This document shows positions 1 through 8,257 of a stretch of DNA of 64,000 nucleotides, in pieces. The notes below the pieces were generated by a model that did no database searches, was not told where the DNA came from, and worked only from the letters and a program-made list of their open reading frames with translations. Every line of letters starts with the position of its first letter. The stretch's first letter is position 1. Source of the stretch: Acidimicrobiales bacterium (GTDB lineage: Bacteria; Actinomycetota; Acidimicrobiia; Acidimicrobiales; MedAcidi-G1); contig JASLKK010000009.1 in NCBI GenBank assembly GCA_030747595.1, forward strand, positions 1 to 64,000, in the 5' to 3' direction. A program made the position numbers and the translations under genes.

Positions 1-675
1 GAACGCGGCGTCCAGCACGCGGTGCTGGAACTCCGGATCGCCTGGCTTGCCGAGCGGTCGCCCAAGTGGGAAGTCACACCACAGACCGCGGGGCGGGGCC
101 GAGCTCTCGATCTGCTTGCGGATCGATCCGAGGGCGACGGTGGCGATCCCCTCAGCCTCGAAAACGTGGGCGAGCGTACTCACGGTACGCGTGCACAGCG
201 GTCAAACCGGGGTAAGCAGAACGACGTCGACGCCCTGATCGCGCAGGAACTTGGCGCCAGCCGGCCCGGAGTCCATGCGGATTGCCGACAGGTCGAACTG
301 GTTGCCGGCGTAGGCCAGATGCTGATCGGCCACGCGGCGGATCACGCCGCGCTCGGCCAATTCGTCGAGTCGGTCCACCGGTAACACGGTGTTCATGTCG
401 TAGGCGAATCCCGACCCGTCGAAGTTGGGACTCCAGTGGCCGGTCACGTAGTCGCGTCGGCTGTCGTCGAGGACGCGGTAACCCGTATCCATGACCTCGA
501 AGTCGTCCTGGTCTGGATGATGCAGCGACGCGGTCGTCACGATCGCGACCGTCGCATCAGCGAGCGGTGGTGGTGTGGTGAACGCCGTCGTCTCGAAACT
601 CTCACCGGGGAGCGCTTCGGTAAGCGCCTTGATGTCGGAGTCAGCCATGAGGGTGAAACTATTACTAGAGGCCAT
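1..675 (-). CDS. GrdB-like selenoprotein, glycine/sarcosine/betaine/D-proline reductase family (runs off left edge)
   Basis: The frame opens at ATG 675, preceded by GGAG five bases upstream, and runs to base 1 with one interruption, a UGA at 204-202. Upstream of it is LRDQGVDVVLLTPV and downstream UPLCTRTVSTLAHVFEAEGI, followed by 67 sense codons to the edge. The family (GrdB/PrdB-like, PF07355) carries a redox UxxC or CxxC exactly after an LLTPV-type strand, so the UGA most likely encodes selenocysteine (Sec158, with Cys161 as partner). Residues around 85-110 (SPNFDGSGFAYDMNTVLPVD, then RLDELAERGVIRRVAD) also match the family. In clostridia GrdB reductively splits glycine, sarcosine or betaine; single-gene relatives in other bacteria have no proven substrate. 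A start at 798 is possible but has no better ribosome site. The alternative is a nonsense mutation, which the conserved downstream frame argues against. Confidence 0.82.
174..204 (-). promoter_or_regulatory. Candidate bacterial SECIS hairpin after the in-frame UGA
   Basis: Read on the minus strand, the UGA (204-202) is followed after 11 nt by a perfect 6-bp stem GCGUAC/GUACGC (190-185 with 179-174) closing a 5-nt loop CGUGA that has G at its second position. The loop starts 17 nt after the UGA, inside the spacing expected for SelB-binding bSECIS elements. Short GUG (196-194) and CAC (168-166) segments could extend it as a lower stem. Function is inferred from position and shape only. Confidence 0.6.
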
Positions 676-823: not shown

Positions 824-1117
824 ATGCTCTTCCATATCACCCACCACCACGACGAGCACACGTGCCCGGCTAAAGACGACGCCACCATGGCGGTCACTTT
901 CGGCGCGGTAATGGACACCCTGACCGAGCACGTCAACGAGGTGGTGGGCGCCTGGGTAGATCCGCCGGGCCACGATTTCTTCTTCGTGGTCGACGCCGAT
1001 GACGCCGCCCAGGTCTTTCAGGGCATGTTTCCGATTATCGATGCCGGTACGGCACAGGTCCGACCGGTCGGCGACTTCGCGGCCATGCTCAAGGCCCGGG
1101 CCGAGGCGAACGCCTGA
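824..1117 (+). CDS. Small DUF3303-like protein (ferredoxin-like fold)
   Basis: 97 residues. The opening MLFHITHHHDEHTC, a central VVGAWVDPPGHDFFFVVDAD and a terminal IIDAGTAQVRPVGDF resemble the small DUF3303-type proteins, which are thought to be dimeric alpha/beta barrels; no enzyme activity is established for them. The N-terminus is rich in His (HHHDEH with a following Cys), which could bind a metal. It is transcribed divergently from the GrdB-like selenoprotein across 148 bp, so the two may share regulation. A purine-rich stretch (GAGAGAAAGCAGGCAGAGC) precedes the ATG. The family assignment is by resemblance only. Confidence 0.55.
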   Translation: MLFHITHHHDEHTCPAKDDATMAVTFGAVMDTLTEHVNEVVGAWVDPPGHDFFFVVDADDAAQVFQGMFPIIDAGTAQVRPVGDFAAMLKARAEANA

Positions 1118-1178
1118 GGAAACCTCGACGGAAACCTCGACGAATCTCTTTCGAGCCGGCGGTCAAGGCCCTCACTGT

Positions 1179-1208
1179 GGGCGGCTATTTCGCAGCGTTT
1201 GGCCGCCC
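1179..1208. terminator. Hairpin between convergent genes, possible bidirectional terminator
   Basis: A perfect 7-bp stem GGGCGGC (1179-1185) / GCCGCCC (1202-1208) lies between the convergent DUF3303-like and PhzF-like genes. A second weaker hairpin follows at 1206-1224 (GCCCC...GGGGC). There is no long U tract, so the role in termination is inferred from location. Confidence 0.4.
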
Positions 1209-1251
1209 CCTCCGGAAGAAGGGGCTTAGGCCTCTATTTCCTGTGGACTGT

Positions 1252-2166
1252 TCAACACGCCGGCACGGGCCCTTCGGAGGTTCTGGTGGCGACCCCCCCC
1301 ACGTAAAGGCGAGCAGGTAGTCCGTCAACCATGATCACCTCGGTTCGTATGAGGCTGGGACGACCCATCTCGACTCCCTGAGATGCTACGACTATCGGGC
1401 TGCCCGTACCGGTTCCGGCCAGGTTGTTACGTACGAGATAGCAGGCCAGGGCCCGATTGGTGGTACCTGTGGCCGGAGCCTCAGGAGTTCCGACAGCCGG
1501 GCAGAAGTCGCGGCACCGAATGGTCACCCCGGGGTCGCTGGTCTCGGTGGTGAACACAGCAAGCGTGTCCGCTCCGATGCGGCGGCACAGATCCGTGACG
1601 GCCTCATAGTCCGGGCAAATCCCCACGATGGTGGCTAGTCGGTCAACTCGGACCACCAGATGTGTGAAATCGGAACTCGCTACTTCCAGACCCAACGGCC
1701 CGATGATCGCCCCGGTTTCAATGCCCAATAGTGATGCCACTTCGGCTACCCCAACCGGGCAGGGGGCGGCAACGGTTGGTTCCAGCGTCAGTATGACTTC
1801 CGGTCGCCCGCTGGCCCTTATCGCCACATCAACTGTCGCCGTACCTCCCGGCGTCCGGAGTGTCCACGACACCGCTCCTGGGTCCGTTCCCAGTCGGTTC
1901 TCTTCGACTAGCCAGGTGAAGAGAGCGATAGTCCCATGACCGCACATTGGGTACTCGGTGAGCGTTGAGAAAAATCTGACATTGACGACTCCTGCACTCA
2001 GACCAGTTACGAAACAGGTAGCCGGCGCCCCTACCTGAGTCGCTATCTGCTGCATCCGTTCAGCACTCAATCCCGAAGCAGCCCCGACCACGCCGGCGAC
2101 GCTGCCGCCGCCCGCCACCTCCGAGAAGGCGTCGTAGAGAGTCAGCGTCCGGTCAGATTCGGTCAT
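1252..2166 (-). CDS. PhzF-family protein lacking the usual catalytic glutamate
   Basis: 304 residues from ATG 2166. The PhzF/diaminopimelate-epimerase fold is shown by ATQVGAPATCFVT, then TLTEYPMCGHGTIALFTWL, and in the second half FCPAVGTPEAPATGTTNRAL. In canonical PhzF isomerases the first motif reads N-L-S-E-T and its Glu is the acid/base; here that place is GAPAT, so the reaction must differ or be lost. The start ATG overlaps the last 14 nt of the upstream amidase gene, so the pair is probably translationally coupled and may act on the same amide or hydroxy-acid substrate. A longer frame to 2301 exists but would overlap the amidase deeply. Confidence 0.75.
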   Translation of the reverse strand: MTESDRTLTLYDAFSEVAGGGSVAGVVGAASGLSAERMQQIATQVGAPATCFVTGLSAGVVNVRFFSTLTEYPMCGHGTIALFTWLVEENRLGTDPGAVSWTLRTPGGTATVDVAIRASGRPEVILTLEPTVAAPCPVGVAEVASLLGIETGAIIGPLGLEVASSDFTHLVVRVDRLATIVGICPDYEAVTDLCRRIGADTLAVFTTETSDPGVTIRCRDFCPAVGTPEAPATGTTNRALACYLVRNNLAGTGTGSPIVVASQGVEMGRPSLIRTEVIMVDGLPARLYVGGVATRTSEGPVPAC

Positions 2167-3571
2167 GCCATGGCTTTGCTTGCTCGAGTTCACGGGCCAG
2201 ACGTAGAACCGTGGTCTCAGAACCAACCGCTGCGCCGAACTGGACTCCAATTGGTAGGCCGTCACCGGACCACCCGAGGGGCACTGAGGCCGCCGGACCA
2301 CCGGTCACGTTGAACAGCGGGGTGAAAGGGATTGCATCGAGGAGGTGCTGGAAATAACTGTCCCAATCGTCGGTCTGCATGTCGAGCTGCCCAAGAGGCA
2401 TTGGCGGCTCGGCCAGCGTCGGAGTTAGCAGCAGGTCGAATCGTTCGAAGAACTCCTCCATGGCGTGCGCCACCCGCTGTGCGTGGCGTAGCGCCGCCTC
2501 GTAGGCGACACCGTCATGTCGTGCGCCAGCCTCGAAGCAGGCCACCGTGATCGGCTCTAGTAGTCCTTCCGTCACGGCGGCTGGCTGATCGGCCAGCACC
2601 GCCTGGACTACCTGTCGGATATTCGTGGTGAATACCACGTCGAGCGCGTGACGGAGTGCTCCTCCCTCAACAGGTGGTCGCACTTCCTCGACCAGGCAGC
2701 CCACTGACTCACAAAGGATCGCTGCTTCGGCGGCTACTCGTGCGCATTCTTCCGACACGGCTTCGCCAGCCAGGCCGTCGGTCCACAGCGCCACGCGGAG
2801 GTCTGGCATATCCCGGACTAGCGCATCGATGAAGGGCCCCGCTGATTCACGAAATTCATTGACCCGACCGGGCAGGGGTCCCGCAGTGGCGTCAAGCAAC
2901 ACCGCTGAGTCACGGACACTATGGGTCACGGCATGGCCGGCACTCAGCCCGCCAAGACCCTCGGGTTGGTCGTTGCCGAGCGGCACCCGCGATCGCGAGG
3001 GCTTGAGCCCGAACAACCCACAGTTGGAGGCCGGAATTCGAATCGACCCTCCGGAGTCGGTGGCATGTGCAGCGGGTACTACGCCGGTTGCCACGGCGAC
3101 AGCCGAACCGCCGCTCGAACCACCGGCGCTGCGGGTCGGGTCGAAAGGGTTGGGGGTGACTCCGAACAGTGCCGGTGCTGTGCATACGTTTAGGCCGAAC
3201 TCCGGGGTGTTTGTCTTCCCGAGGAGGATCAGGCCGGCGGTCCGCAGGCGTTCGATCAGCACGGCATCGCGGTCGGGAACGAAGTTCGCAAGGGCCCGAC
3301 TTCCGTTCGTAGCCGGCATGCCCCGAACCCAGGTGTTGAGGTCCTTGACGAGGTACGGCACGCCGGTCAGCGGGCCAGTTGGCAGGAGGGCACCGACATT
3401 GCGGTGGGCGTCGTCGAAGCAGGTGGTGACCACGCCGTGCAGCGGCCGTTCTGCCGCTTCGATCCTGGCCATGCTCTCCTGCAGAACCTCGGCTGCCGTT
3501 ACCTCACCGGTAGCTACCAGCGCTGCGAGTCCCACGGCGTCGCGGCCGGTGTACTCCTCGGCGCTCAGCAC
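2153..3571 (-). CDS. Amidase signature family amidohydrolase
   Basis: 472 residues, usual for the AS family (GatA-like fold). The Ser-cisSer-Lys triad is visible: Lys in YLVKDLNTWVRG, the glycine/serine core RSAGGSSGGSAVAVATG, and the nucleophile loop DSGGSIRIPASNCG. The family hydrolyses amides, usually to an acid plus ammonia; the substrate cannot be told from sequence. It starts at GTG 3571 with GAGGA seven bases upstream, a ribosome site that lies inside the second copy of a 30-bp tandem repeat (3568-3627). It follows dddP by 29 bp and overlaps the PhzF-like gene by 14 nt, so the three likely form one transcript. Confidence 0.88.
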   Translation of the reverse strand: MLSAEEYTGRDAVGLAALVATGEVTAAEVLQESMARIEAAERPLHGVVTTCFDDAHRNVGALLPTGPLTGVPYLVKDLNTWVRGMPATNGSRALANFVPDRDAVLIERLRTAGLILLGKTNTPEFGLNVCTAPALFGVTPNPFDPTRSAGGSSGGSAVAVATGVVPAAHATDSGGSIRIPASNCGLFGLKPSRSRVPLGNDQPEGLGGLSAGHAVTHSVRDSAVLLDATAGPLPGRVNEFRESAGPFIDALVRDMPDLRVALWTDGLAGEAVSEECARVAAEAAILCESVGCLVEEVRPPVEGGALRHALDVVFTTNIRQVVQAVLADQPAAVTEGLLEPITVACFEAGARHDGVAYEAALRHAQRVAHAMEEFFERFDLLLTPTLAEPPMPLGQLDMQTDDWDSYFQHLLDAIPFTPLFNVTGGPAASVPLGWSGDGLPIGVQFGAAVGSETTVLRLARELEQAKPWHDRI

Positions 3572-3627
3572 TATTGGTCCTCAGTCAAGAGCGGATGCCA
3601 CTAGTGGTCCTCAGTCCAAAGCGGATA
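3568..3627. repeat. 30-bp tandem duplication spanning the 3' end of dddP and the amidase start
   Basis: Two contiguous 30-bp units, 3568-3597 and 3598-3627, are identical at 25 of 30 positions. The right unit encodes the last residues and stop of the DddP-like protein (LWTEDH-stop). The left unit repeats the same coding sense (LLTEDQ-stop), lies untranslated in the gap, and supplies GAGGA plus the GTG start of the amidase. Confidence 0.9.
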
Positions 3628-4788
3628 CGAAGACAGGGCTTTGACTCCGCCAGCAGTCACCTGAACCATCTGCTCGAGCTTCACGCCTTGTGTGCCTCCC
3701 AGTCGGCCCACATAGCTCTCTACGGCCAGCACGACCCCGTCCTCGAGTTCGCCGTCGTAGCCGCAGCGGACCCAGTCGTCGGGATATGGGATCTTTGGGT
3801 ACTCGTCGCACATTCCCACACCGTGGAAGGCACAGACGTAGCGTTGGGCGACGACGTCGTCGGGTTGGCGAAGCACAGCCTGGGACAACTCCCGGAACGA
3901 GGCTCCAACATGTAGCAGGGCCGTGTTGTGTTCGATCTCGGCTCGGGCCAGTTCGTACAGGTCGCTCTGTTCGGCGGTGGGGGGCACGCCTCCACATAGA
4001 AATGTCCGGGAGATATCGGCGCAGTAGCCGAACGGTCCAATCATGTCTGTGTCGAACGGGACCAGATCGCCGACTCCGATGGCCCGGTCAGTGGCCTCCT
4101 GGTACCACGGGTTGGTGCGGGGGCCGGAGCACAGCATCCGCCCATCGATCCAGTCGCCGTCGTGGGCGATATTGACCTGGTGGAGGATGGACCACAGTTG
4201 GTTCTCGCTGATGCCGGGCACCAGGGCACCCTCCATTGCCGCCATACCGTGCTCGGCTACGTCAATCGAGTAGCGAAGGGCATCGAGTTCTAGTGGTGAC
4301 TTGCGGCTCCGAGCCAACTCGACTGCAGGGTCGGCGTCGACGACACGCAGGTTGGCGTCAGTCAGAGCCACATGTCCGCTGGGTGACGTGCGTTCCAGGC
4401 CGATCGTGGCCGTTGCCGGCAATCCGACCTCGGAAAGATAGGCGGCAACGTCGCCGGCGAACCCAGCTGCCACCGCTGAGAGGTCCATTCCGGCATCAAA
4501 GGCGGTAACCGAGTGAGCCGGCCGAGCGTCATCGATGGTGCCGGTCGGACCGGAATAGCCGCCGTAGAGCACCAGCGGGCCGACGACAGGAACAATCAGG
4601 TAGGTCGAAGGGATGTGGCTCTGGAACAGTGGAAAGCCCCGGTAGTCGGCGGCGTACCGGAGGCTCACCGGGTTGGTCAGCACACACACGTCAAGACCGC
4701 ATTCAGCCATGGTTTCCTGGAGCCGGGTGAGTCGACTGGCACGCAGTGCGTCTAGGTCCAGGGGCGGTGGTTGCAGGAATTCGGGCAC
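3601..4788 (-). CDS. dddP: DddP-type dimethylsulfoniopropionate (DMSP) lyase, M24 peptidase fold
   Basis: 395 residues, creatinase/M24 fold with an N-terminal domain (about 1-160) and a pita-bread metal domain. Candidate metal ligands are D246, D248, D258, H322, E357 and E372. Their spacing (2, 10, 64, 35, 15) is the same as I recall for the DMSP lyase DddP of Ruegeria lacuscaerulensis (D295, D297, D307, H371, E406, E421). D328, six residues after the His in HGVGMCDEYP, matches the proposed catalytic base D377, and Y317 matches Y366. Ordinary M24 aminopeptidases have a different Asp spacing. The expected reaction is DMSP to dimethyl sulfide plus acrylate, in the cytoplasm. First gene of a run with the amidase and PhzF-like genes. 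Confidence 0.78.
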   Translation of the reverse strand: MPEFLQPPPLDLDALRASRLTRLQETMAECGLDVCVLTNPVSLRYAADYRGFPLFQSHIPSTYLIVPVVGPLVLYGGYSGPTGTIDDARPAHSVTAFDAGMDLSAVAAGFAGDVAAYLSEVGLPATATIGLERTSPSGHVALTDANLRVVDADPAVELARSRKSPLELDALRYSIDVAEHGMAAMEGALVPGISENQLWSILHQVNIAHDGDWIDGRMLCSGPRTNPWYQEATDRAIGVGDLVPFDTDMIGPFGYCADISRTFLCGGVPPTAEQSDLYELARAEIEHNTALLHVGASFRELSQAVLRQPDDVVAQRYVCAFHGVGMCDEYPKIPYPDDWVRCGYDGELEDGVVLAVESYVGRLGGTQGVKLEQMVQVTAGGVKALSSYPLWTEDH

Positions 4789-4991
4789 GGCGCGGACTGT
4801 AGACCCTGACGGCCCCTGGAGAGCGAGCGGTGGAGAGTTCCCGCAGGTGCACAGGCCTGTCAGTAGGGAATACGCCGGTCCATCGGTGAGCGAATCGAAG
4901 TACCTCTGGAAGCCGTGAGCGTCTAGGTCCCTTTCCGACGCCGCACGTATAGTGAGATTCGCTTCCGCCAGCCAATTGGGGACGTACCGGC

Positions 4992-6164
4992 ATGACGTAC
5001 GCAGGAAACCGACGGATCATCGACGTCGACAGCCACCTCTTCGAACTCGACGACTTTCTTCACGCGGTCGCGACTGACGAGGAAGCCGCCTTCATCCGAC
5101 CGATGGAGGCACAGACCGAACTGCCGGTCTCACTGGAGGCCATCAACCGGGGTCGTGAGCACCTTGATCGCCGGAATGCTGATCCTGAGTTGATGACCAA
5201 GTTCGAAGCGGGGATGTTCGACATAAGCCGTAGTCCTTGGTCCCGCCTCGGTGCGTTCGATCCGGCTGAACGGTCCCACGCGCTCGACGTACTCGGCTTC
5301 GAGCGTCAGATCGTGCTCGGCACGTTCTCGTTCCACCAAATTGCTCATGAGGAAAACGCAAAAGCGCTCGAAATCGGTGCCCGTGTCCATAATCGCGCAA
5401 TGGGCCGTTTCTGTTCCCACGATGAACGGTTGCTCGCGGGAGGGTACGTGCCGCTCTCACTCGGCCCAGACGTGGCCGGCGGACTCCTCGATGAGGCTTT
5501 CGCCGATGGTTGCTACACGGTAATGGTGGACACGAACGAGGCTGATCCAACAGCGCGCTCGTTCACACATCCCGACTTCGATCCGGTTTGGGCTCGCTTC
5601 GCTCAACGGGACGTACCTCTCCTGGTGCACATCGCGGTTAACGGTCGCTACGAGCCCGTCACGCCGAGTTTCAAAAACAACGGGCGCGGTTCGACGGCCG
5701 CGGGCGGTGATGCCCCGGATTCGAACCTGGGTCTCGTCGCGATGAACAACTCGGCCGAGCTGTTCCTTTCGGCGATGATCCTCGACGAGGTCTTCGAACG
5801 TCACGACGGCCTGCGGTGCCTCTCGCTCGAACATGGGGCGTCGTGGGTGCCGGGCTGGCTCCACAAACTTGACTTCGTGGAGCGCTCGACCTGGGCTGTC
5901 GCTCCTCGAAGCCGGAGGGCTTCCGACGTTGCCCGAGAGCGCGTCCGTTTTGCACCGTTTGCTGGCGAGCCGGTCGGCTGGCTCATCGAACAGCTTGGCC
6001 CCGACATGCTCTGCTTCGCGTCCGACTACCCCCACCCCGAGGGATCGAGGGATCCGATCCGGAAGTTCGAGGCGACCATGGACGGGGTTGACCCGGCGGC
6101 GCTCGAAGCCTTCTACGCCGGCAACGTGGAGCGGTTCCTCGGCACCGCGCCGACCCCGGTCTGA
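4992..6164 (+). CDS. Amidohydrolase-2 family metal-dependent hydrolase (TIM barrel)
   Basis: 390 residues. The amidohydrolase-2 (PF04909) pattern is clear: IIDVDSHLFE at the N-terminus in place of a D-x-H motif, VPLLVHIAVNGR in the middle, CLSLEHGASWVPGW and the C-terminal CFASDYPHPEG with its catalytic Asp and His. Relatives include decarboxylases and hydrolases of aromatic or carboxylic substrates; the true substrate is unknown. GGGGA lies nine bases before the ATG. The gene is divergent from dddP across about 200 bp. Confidence 0.8.
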   Translation: MTYAGNRRIIDVDSHLFELDDFLHAVATDEEAAFIRPMEAQTELPVSLEAINRGREHLDRRNADPELMTKFEAGMFDISRSPWSRLGAFDPAERSHALDVLGFERQIVLGTFSFHQIAHEENAKALEIGARVHNRAMGRFCSHDERLLAGGYVPLSLGPDVAGGLLDEAFADGCYTVMVDTNEADPTARSFTHPDFDPVWARFAQRDVPLLVHIAVNGRYEPVTPSFKNNGRGSTAAGGDAPDSNLGLVAMNNSAELFLSAMILDEVFERHDGLRCLSLEHGASWVPGWLHKLDFVERSTWAVAPRSRRASDVARERVRFAPFAGEPVGWLIEQLGPDMLCFASDYPHPEGSRDPIRKFEATMDGVDPAALEAFYAGNVERFLGTAPTPV

Positions 6165-6258
6165 GCGAGCAAGCACCCCACCGCTCCCGGTGGGTCAGGA
6201 AGCACGTGGTGTCGATGGCTGAGCAAGAGGGACATCGCCAACGGGCACACTGGAGACC

Positions 6259-6549
6259 GTGAACCGAACAACCGTCGTGCACAACCAGGTCGACGAATAC
6301 GACGTCTACATCGGACGCGCGGTCCCCGAACACGGTATTGACGACAGCAAATGGGGAAACCCATTCGTTATGGCCAATGACAGCGACGCTGAACGCGAGC
6401 GTGCAATCAATGCCTACCGGGAATGGGTGGTCGCTCAGCCAGAGCTGATGAGTTCACTAGAAGAGCTCCGGAGCAAAAGACTGGGTTGTTGGTGTGCGCC
6501 AAAGGCATGCCATGGCGACGTGCTGATCGAACTCCTGGACAAGGCCTAG
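6259..6549 (+). CDS. DUF4326 domain protein
   Basis: 96 residues from a GTG start with GGAG four bases upstream. The domain hallmarks are VYIGRAVPEHG, SKWGNPF, the regular helix INAYREWVV, and the C-terminal LGCWCAPKACHGDVL with three Cys and one His, which probably binds a metal. The function of DUF4326 is not established; members are common in phages and in bacterial accessory regions. It ends four bases before the stop of the convergent alkylsulfatase-like gene. Confidence 0.85.
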   Translation: MNRTTVVHNQVDEYDVYIGRAVPEHGIDDSKWGNPFVMANDSDAERERAINAYREWVVAQPELMSSLEELRSKRLGCWCAPKACHGDVLIELLDKA

Positions 6550-6553
6550 TCGG

Positions 6554-8257
6554 TCATTCAAACCCGGGGTGGTCAATCGCCGCCAGAGCCTGGAACACCC
6601 GCGCCGTGTCGCCCTCGACCAACAAATCGCCTGAGTCCACAGCGCCACGAATGTCGCCAGACCCCGTCAAAATCTGATCCCAGACCTTCCTGGACCCCGT
6701 AAGCACAGCTTCGGCATCAAGTCCATCCGTTGGGCAGGCGATGTGGTTGCGAAAGTGGATGCCCGTACGTTCACCGTCGAGTACCACAGCCAGGTGAAGA
6801 TCGACACCAGCAAGCCGATCGGGCTCAACGAGAACCCGGATCACAGATACTGCTGCGTCCAGCGACCACCGTCCTACCTGTCGCCGACTGAATCGATGCG
6901 TTCTCAGCCTCGACATGTCGATGGTGCCATCGAGGTCGAGAGCCCTAGTGAGACACCAGTTGCGAACATTTGCGGAGGTCGTGCGCCTGGCCGCGGTACG
7001 GAGGGCATCAGCAAGGAGCCGTTGGTCTTGTTGCGTCGATCCTGGACGACGCGCGAGACGGCCGGCAAGTGACAGAGCCCAACGGCAATCGTTGTCGCTT
7101 CCAGCGAGTGCCTCGACGCAGAGCGTTCTCACCTTCTCGTCGCCGCCCATGGCTGAGATCGTTCGCTCTGCTTCATCGGATGAATCCAGTGGAAGCAGGC
7201 CTACCGGATCGCCGTCGAAGAATCCGAAGAGGCCGGTCCGGATTTGGCGGACGTGGTGTTCAACTAGGCCGTAATGCTGTTGGGTCAACCAGTCCTTGTC
7301 GTACATCGTTGGCAAATGGATGCGGTGCGCGAGTTCTGGACCCGTTGCTCCGCGGTTTGTCCAGCGGACGGTCTGGTCCCATAAAAACTGGATTGAGTCG
7401 CGATAGGCGGTGACCCTTCGCGCTATTTCTTCCTTGCCCGACAAGGGGGGGCCGTGGGTTGCCACGAGGTGGTCGGCGTTGAGGGAACGGAGGTGGTCAA
7501 GCCCGTCAAGGAGCACCCGTGGATCCCGGTATTCCTCCCCTCGGATAGCAAATACGTTGAAAAGCGCTGGCCACACCAGGTTGTGAATCGCCACATCGAG
7601 GTTGGGGAACCAGAGGGTGACCGAGTCGTCGGCATCGGAAGGCGCAGGCGTCACCTCCATCTCCAGCCCAGCGAGGTCTACCGTGACCTGCTCCGAGAAG
7701 GTTTGGTCGGCTGCCACGTAGCCGGGCGTCGACGGTGCGTGATGTGGCATTCGGTAGGCGAGTCCCAACCCCACATTGACGAGCCCATCAGGTCCCTCAT
7801 CAGGTAGTTGGATGCCGAACTGCTCGACAAGCCCGCGACTGTAGGCAGGAGCGATCTCCATAGCGGCCCGTTCAAGGTTCTGAGCGATGCGCTCGTGCCC
7901 CCAGATAGCAGTGACTGGTTCCTGCTCCGTGAGCGCCACTGTCCCGTTGACGTAGTGAAAATGTGTGTAGACAACCGCAACCACTGGCTCTGTCGTGACT
8001 CGGCGAAGTTGATCCAAGGCACTCCGCATCTCCTCCACCGATTCGCCGGTGTCGATCGCGATGATGCCTTTAGGGCCGCGGAGGAATGTCTGGTTTGACA
8101 GACCGTTTCCTACGAGGCACCAAACTCCGTCACGCACCTCGTACATGTTGGGGGCTAGGCGCTTCGTGTGCTCGTGTAGCGATCGGTCGGCAAGTCGGCC
8201 CTGTGCGTCGGCCACGACGCGGGAGTCATCATCGGCAAGCGTGTTCGAGTCCCCCAT
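6554..8257 (-). CDS. Alkylsulfatase-like MBL-fold hydrolase with altered metal motif
   Basis: 567 residues. Order: metallo-beta-lactamase domain (about 40-290), alkylsulfatase dimerisation region (about 300-430), and a C-terminal sterol-carrier-like domain, as in SdsA1/Pisa1-type sulfatases that release sulfate from alkyl sulfate esters. Family landmarks are GLSNQTFLRGPKG, NVFAIRGEEYRDP and VATHGPPLSG. The usual THxHxDH metal motif instead reads THFHYVNG (H99, H101, V103, N104), and the TEAPAE and AEN segments that give Glu ligands in SdsA1 read APSDAD and AIHN. The metal centre is therefore remodelled, and the activity could differ from sulfate ester cleavage. Confidence 0.72.
   Translation of the reverse strand: MGDSNTLADDDSRVVADAQGRLADRSLHEHTKRLAPNMYEVRDGVWCLVGNGLSNQTFLRGPKGIIAIDTGESVEEMRSALDQLRRVTTEPVVAVVYTHFHYVNGTVALTEQEPVTAIWGHERIAQNLERAAMEIAPAYSRGLVEQFGIQLPDEGPDGLVNVGLGLAYRMPHHAPSTPGYVAADQTFSEQVTVDLAGLEMEVTPAPSDADDSVTLWFPNLDVAIHNLVWPALFNVFAIRGEEYRDPRVLLDGLDHLRSLNADHLVATHGPPLSGKEEIARRVTAYRDSIQFLWDQTVRWTNRGATGPELAHRIHLPTMYDKDWLTQQHYGLVEHHVRQIRTGLFGFFDGDPVGLLPLDSSDEAERTISAMGGDEKVRTLCVEALAGSDNDCRWALSLAGRLARRPGSTQQDQRLLADALRTAARRTTSANVRNWCLTRALDLDGTIDMSRLRTHRFSRRQVGRWSLDAAVSVIRVLVEPDRLAGVDLHLAVVLDGERTGIHFRNHIACPTDGLDAEAVLTGSRKVWDQILTGSGDIRGAVDSGDLLVEGDTARVFQALAAIDHPGFE

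Follow-up and report, generated by a model that had tools for sequence, protein, structure and literature searches.

GrdB, GrdF and GrdH are the selenoprotein B of the glycine, sarcosine and betaine reductases. In the clostridial mechanism a pyruvoyl group is carried by a partner protein (Kabisch et al. 1999, as cited in PMC13188914). PrdB-type selenoproteins with a UxxC motif have been known from the sea since 2005. In the Sargasso Sea survey they ranked third in abundance among the families, with 42 genes (PMC1088965), and PrdB UxxC proteins (pfam07355) were among the most abundant selenoproteins in GOS, with 235 genes (PMC2398784). The gene analysed here is a variant form of these proteins. 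In the sections of PMC1088965 and PMC2398784 that were searched we found no description of its C-terminal domain, its absent partner or its host group, and no relevant paper on selenoproteins in Acidimicrobiia turned up in the literature searched. A two-domain, PrdA-less form in Acidimicrobiia and Gammaproteobacteria was not found described in this partial literature search, and no priority is claimed for it. We consider the product of the gene to be probably a stand-alone selenoprotein reductase of the PrdB/GrdB superfamily from marine Acidimicrobiales.

Position and reading frame of the gene

The window, i.e. the whole stretch of 64,000 nucleotides that was analysed, comprises positions 1-64000 of contig C9 of the host genome (G000), a draft of 2.46 Mb in 84 contigs (95.87% complete, 1.4% contaminated). 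Window and contig have their first base in common; hence the gene is cut by the assembly and not merely by the edge of the window. The features referred to below are:

1-648, minus strand: 5' part of the PrdB-like selenoprotein gene, 216 codons including the Sec codon (from the frame and the relatives)
202-204, minus strand: UGA, assigned as the selenocysteine codon (U149) and followed by P-L-C (UxxC) (from TGA in 80/80 homologues and the Sec machinery)
193-195, minus strand: Cys152, the UxxC partner of Sec149 (invariant in a 38-sequence alignment)
174-190, minus strand: putative bSECIS apical stem-loop, GCGTAC (190-185), loop CGTGA (184-180), GTACGC (179-174) (from synonymous conservation, covariation and fold)
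824-1117: DUF3303 gene beside the PrdB-like gene

The minus-strand frame from 648 to 1 reads MADSDIKALTEALPGESFETTAFTTPPPLADATVAIVTTASL...DVVLLTPV-UGA-PLCTRTVSTLAHVFEAEGIATVALGSIRKQIESSAPPRGLWCDFPLGRPLGKPGDPEFQHRVLDAAF and then runs into base 1, with the start codon placed by homology at the ATG at 648-646 (MADSDIKALTEALPGE). As the sequence-only reading had noted, an in-frame TGA (204-202) follows LLTPV and is itself followed by PLCTRTV (PLCTRTVSTLAHVFEAEGIATV... on the minus strand), and its count of 67 open codons from there to base 1 is correct. A complete copy in another genome (G002) is 98% identical to the window gene, and the 38 full-length homologues measure 380-385 amino acids, mostly 381. 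The full-length protein would thus have 381 residues, its 3' half being taken from relatives that are 97-98% identical.

Evidence for selenocysteine at the UGA codon

If the UGA were a true stop, the downstream frame would be due to chance, to a pseudogene or to a sequencing error. At the base composition of the window an open run of 67 codons has a chance of about 16%, and the folding energy around the UGA is unexceptional, both of which are compatible with a stop. The homologues speak otherwise. As query for a scan of species genomes the protein segment beyond the UGA was taken, which gives Cys and Sec forms the same chance of detection; 253 loci matched. In all of the best 80 of these 253, which were fetched, TGA stands exactly at the Sec codon and the frame is open beyond it, comprising 232 codons in complete homologues; protein identity after the UGA is 58-100% among homologues. 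Not one of the 80 genes ends at the UGA. Cys occupies the same column in two loci of the sister clade described below (L134 and L144). The homologue comparison therefore refutes the reading as a true stop, which also has against it the conservation of synonymous sites exactly at the SECIS and the complete Sec machinery, and to which we assign practically no probability. In two loci, L041 (G041) and L049 (G029), the search flagged a single TAA in the matched region in addition to the TGA; these may be decaying genes, or the TAA may be an upstream stop before the true start.

The 6-bp stem-loop that had been proposed as a bSECIS is present, separated from the UGA by a spacer of 11 nt (CCGCTGTGCAC, 201-191). 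Over codons +4 to +9 after the UGA synonymous-codon identity amounts to 0.81-1.00, as against 0.20-0.35 expected (pairwise, 77 distinct sequences), whereas the remainder of the 120 flanking codons shows a mean synonymous excess of 0.03. The frozen codons coincide with the stem-loop GCGTAC-CGTGA-GTACGC. Moreover, the central stem pair (alignment columns 18/28) is UA in some sequences and CG in 9 of the 32 distinct ones; on one side the switch is synonymous, on the other it alters the amino acid. A count of 9 was reached by none of 500 shuffles and by no slide of the helix by 1-3 nt, such a slide abolishing the pairing. Strong comparative evidence thus identifies the stem-loop as a likely bSECIS.

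Folding energy around the UGA, at first a candidate proof of a bSECIS, was no better than that of shuffled sequences (z = -0.32) and was dropped in favour of synonymous conservation and covariation. The loop occurs in the variants CGTGA, CGTGG, GGTCA and GGTGA, and as GGTCT in L040 (G047), as in the SECIS of E. coli fdhF.

All four components of the decoding machinery were found in the host genome: selA (C2:10141-11625; 398 bits, cut-off 268) adjoining selB (C2:8419-10137; 281 bits, cut-off 242), a tRNA-Sec whose anticodon is UCA (C2:25067-25158; 66.9 bits, gathering 47) and selD (C4:97516-98439 (+), locus L138). The latter has one in-frame TGA (...GAGUGCKL...), being a selenoprotein gene itself. 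Across 100 related genomes, in counts that ignore kinship, selA was present in 57/60 genomes with a homologue versus 19/40 without (Fisher p = 6e-8); outside the family of the host the figures were 14/15 and 18/38 (p = 0.002). The three homologue-bearing genomes without selA are MAGs, each at most 85% complete, and a Pseudomonadales genome (5.1-Mb chromosome record) with the gene has selA as well (525 bits). We conclude that the UGA is almost certainly read as Sec149, and the central claim of the sequence-only reading, a selenocysteine-encoding gene, is upheld by the TGA in the homologues, the bSECIS and the machinery taken together.

Family placement and predicted structure

The best NCBIfam model was TIGR04483, PrdB (106.5 bits, E = 1.4e-30, residues 27-217), with a score far below the equivalog cut-off of 300 bits. 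GrdB-type models gave 32-38 bits, TIGR01917 (32.1 bits, cut-off 602) and TIGR01918 (33.7 bits, cut-off 65) both lying below threshold, and PF07355 with 20.9-21.4 bits lay just below its cut-off of 22. Matches to annotated PrdB by tblastn ranged from E 1e-20 to 1e-13. The homologous Sec/Cys domain of the PrdB/GrdB superfamily with its U/CxxC is present, and the expected redox Sec is found as Sec149 with Cys152, the Cys being invariant in 38 sequences. Judged by its sequence, the protein belongs to the PrdB/GrdB superfamily and lies closer to PrdB, without being a PrdB or GrdB in the strict sense. The earlier designation as GrdB-like accordingly holds for the superfamily and fails for the nearest relative, which is PrdB.

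In the predicted model (pLDDT 84), the N-terminal Sec domain is Rossmann-like, with Sec149 in a turn between a strand (142-146) and a helix (152-165). It is followed by a conserved, helical C-terminal domain, predicted with pLDDT 91 when folded alone. The whole-model pTM of 0.63 leaves the relative placement of the two domains uncertain. No Pfam match to the C-terminal domain was obtained in 36 members, a PDB sequence search returned no solved relative and Foldseek on the model gave no match at E <= 0.001. In a fold search of the PDB no hit stood out: the whole model reached at best Z 7.3 (113 residues) and the C-terminal domain Z 4.0 (74 residues), and neither a function nor a new fold is claimed on this basis. 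This second, unannotated domain was out of the sequence-only reader's view.

The UxxC motif lies where a helix begins, a feature of thioredoxin-like selenoproteins, and this would also suit a general thiol or selenol redox protein, i.e. a peroxide or disulfide reductase in stress defence with no single organic substrate. The Rossmann-like fold of the N-terminal domain in the model argues against this, as does the fact that the relatives with known function are substrate-specific reductases.

Partner subunits

PF09338, which covers GrdE-type subunits and here stands for the pyruvoyl-type partner, had 0 matches in the host genome, a 96% complete draft, while 13/296 genomes of the phylum were positive. 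GrdA (PF04723) likewise had 0 matches there and scored above cut-off in 9/198 phylum genomes. A partner profile was additionally made from the PF09338 proteins of the phylum and those of Peptoclostridium; it recovers its own controls and gave no hit in the 1.25 Mb that surround the 80 homologous loci. PF09338 also matches a Peptoclostridium domain encoded in the same frame as PrdB. At this locus (L143:4531-6630, on a Peptoclostridium acidaminophilum plasmid) PrdB (UGTC) and an upstream PF09338 domain share one open frame, of which the PrdB part alone is annotated and which an EamA transporter adjoins; the frame is apparently a PrdA-PrdB fusion.

These searches bear on a rival explanation, namely that the gene belongs to a conventional D-proline or glycine/betaine reductase, with its partner genes in the 4% of the genome missing from the assembly or past the contig break. 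Sequence affinity to PrdB, the end of the contig inside the gene and a completeness of 95.87% would allow for this. Weighing against it are the silence of a control-positive profile around 80 loci, the absence of PF09338 and PF04723 matches from a genome whose phylum has positives elsewhere, and the Peptoclostridium PrdB that sits in one frame with its PF09338 domain; the score of 106 against the 300 bits of the PrdB equivalog and the extra conserved C-terminal domain point the same way. We judge an ordinary reductase subunit to be highly improbable. Since neither PF09338 nor GrdA was found, the clostridial pyruvoyl mechanism is seemingly unavailable here, and the description as a stand-alone protein without glycine- or proline-reductase partners agrees with the PF09338 and PF04723 searches. 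It is very likely that the protein would work without a PrdA-type partner. One might speculate that the C-terminal helical domain takes part of the missing partner's role.

Clades, distribution and transfer

A tree of 45 sequences divides clade A, which contains the window type, from a further Sec-containing clade, B. The residues after Sec number about 231-244 in clade A, about 100-156 in clade B and 86 in Peptoclostridium PrdB. Within the host's own genus clade B is present in 16/16 genomes and clade A in 8/16, the latter with a patchy distribution over two sublineages; such patchiness, together with variable gene context, is accessory-like and would fit the general redox protein considered above. 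The host genome carries a clade B gene as well (C4:37275-37841 (+), L021; LLVPVUPVCHQTV), with a stem CAGAC-CGTGG-GTCTG starting 12 nt after the UGA.

The Cys relatives L134 (G086:C14; HCPVCHQS) and L144 (Roseomonas plasmid; NCPVCHQT) nest among the Sec forms of clade B, which indicates that Sec and Cys have been exchanged in the family. A third, divergent Sec-containing PrdB-like subfamily (TATUGTGTRCG) is represented by L136 (G055:C77) and L161 (G075:C53). Here Gly replaces the Cys of UxxC, and L136 has a stem-loop GCGTTG-CGGGT-CAACGC.

Most relatives are MAGs of Acidimicrobiales, in many cases marine ones, which agrees with the actinobacterial and marine setting suggested at the outset; the relatives extend to Gammaproteobacteria. 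With 253 loci in species genomes the family is widespread, and the impression of a singular oddity has to be given up. Loci whose records are titled Gammaproteobacteria or Pseudomonadales are nested within the Acidimicrobiia sequences; two of these loci lie on contigs of 4.4 and 5.1 Mb. Near-complete Pseudomonadales chromosomes with the gene are OY282447.1 and CATOTI010000002.1. Horizontal transfer is the simplest reading of the branching and of the patchiness. Contamination of MAGs is a poor fit for the megabase contigs and may account for small individual ones. Two MAGs titled Acidobacteria and Planctomycetaceae (L058, L059) carry a copy that is 85% identical to an Acidimicrobiales one; these bins are probably mislabelled or contaminated.

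Gene neighbourhood

Across a large marine Acidimicrobiales subclade the gene order is conserved from about -4.5 to +7 kb relative to the match (L065, L066, L071, L083, L091, L110, L122 and others). It comprises a PhyH-type dioxygenase, an SDR, an EamA transporter, the PrdB-like gene and an MFS transporter, then a long indolepyruvate-ferredoxin-oxidoreductase-like and a cystathionine-beta-synthase-like protein; a flavin monooxygenase gene lies upstream in divergent orientation. Pfam identified PhyH and the flavin monooxygenase; SDR, EamA, MFS and the last two by reading of the sequences. In several Gammaproteobacteria TauD and PhyH genes lie directly upstream. The frequency of oxygenases among the neighbours would suit the aerobic setting that the sequence-only reading supposed. 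These neighbours suggest a role in the oxidative catabolism of an organic compound, and the conserved, catabolic-looking set of PhyH, SDR, EamA and MFS in marine Acidimicrobiales counts against a general redox protein. The host genome has 14 PhyH genes, however, and because PhyH is common and the members of each neighbourhood group are akin, the proximity may partly be due to chance.

In the nearest relatives within the window's own genus the gene context is mostly different. The nearest of all, L054, has only the PrdB-like gene and the divergent DUF3303 gene in common with the window. As a guide to function, gene context was therefore set aside as strong within subclades only. Next to the gene, positions 824-8257 of the window hold DUF3303, a PhzF-type isomerase, an amidase, an M24 peptidase, an amidohydrolase, DUF4326 and an alkyl-sulfatase-like metallo-hydrolase, a stretch that looks catabolic.

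Proposed function

We propose the following course of events. A ribosome would arrive at the in-frame UGA, where the bSECIS would recruit SelB and Sec-tRNA(Sec), and Sec149 would be inserted. In the finished protein the selenolate of Sec149 would attack the substrate or a disulfide-like bond, and Cys152 would resolve the intermediate via a selenenylsulfide, which a thiol system would then re-reduce. This redox cycle is proposed because of the UxxC motif and the family to which the protein belongs, and we hold a redox reductase with UxxC chemistry to be probable. The general redox protein without a single organic substrate seems to us unlikely, with a chance that is far from negligible.

As for the substrate of the proposed reductase, no work on Schiff base-bound amines would be expected, since there is no PrdA/GrdE-type pyruvoyl subunit. 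A small organic electrophile or a thiol-type compound of oxidative catabolism would be more likely, as 2-oxoglutarate dioxygenases adjoin the gene in two unrelated bacterial groups; this choice of substrate class is a weak conjecture, and it may well be wrong. In its fullest form our proposal is that of a two-domain enzyme which has no pyruvoyl subunit, whose helical C-terminal domain helps to reduce a marine organic compound so far not known from selenium chemistry, in oxygen-living hosts, and which was transferred between Acidimicrobiia and Gammaproteobacteria. We offer this combination tentatively and regard it as possible, if somewhat doubtful as a whole.

Comparison with known systems

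The PrdB of Peptoclostridium acidaminophilum (EAL2_RS15370) resembles the window protein in having Sec in a UxxC at the same place, with homology over residues 27-217 at about 30% identity. The two differ in the length that follows Sec, 232 residues in the window-type protein and 86 in Peptoclostridium PrdB. From the PrdB of D-proline reductase the window protein is further distinguished by having no detected PrdA/PF09338 partner. GrdB, GrdF and GrdH (PF07355, TIGR01917/01918) have the UxxC Sec motif in common with it, and the GrdB-type models match its residues 63-176 with their C-terminal third, whereas no GrdA or GrdE-type subunit was found for the window protein. The Roseomonas plasmid protein WP_207415257.1, annotated as 'Glycine/sarcosine/betaine reductase selenoprotein B family protein', is a homologue with no annotated reductase partner nearby; it is of the clade B type and, unlike the window protein, has Cys in place of Sec.

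The 'PrdB' of the Sargasso and GOS surveys has family label, motif and habitat in common with the window gene, and those surveys (PMC1088965, PMC2398784) most likely already contain members of its clade. Surface-ocean 'PrdB' bears the name of clostridial, anaerobic proline reduction. Clade A suggests that part of the marine PrdB count is a different, stand-alone two-domain enzyme without the catalytic partner, whereby the standard PrdB annotation of marine proteins becomes doubtful, and identifying the substrate of clade A becomes a concrete and testable way to learn what marine bacteria use their selenium for.
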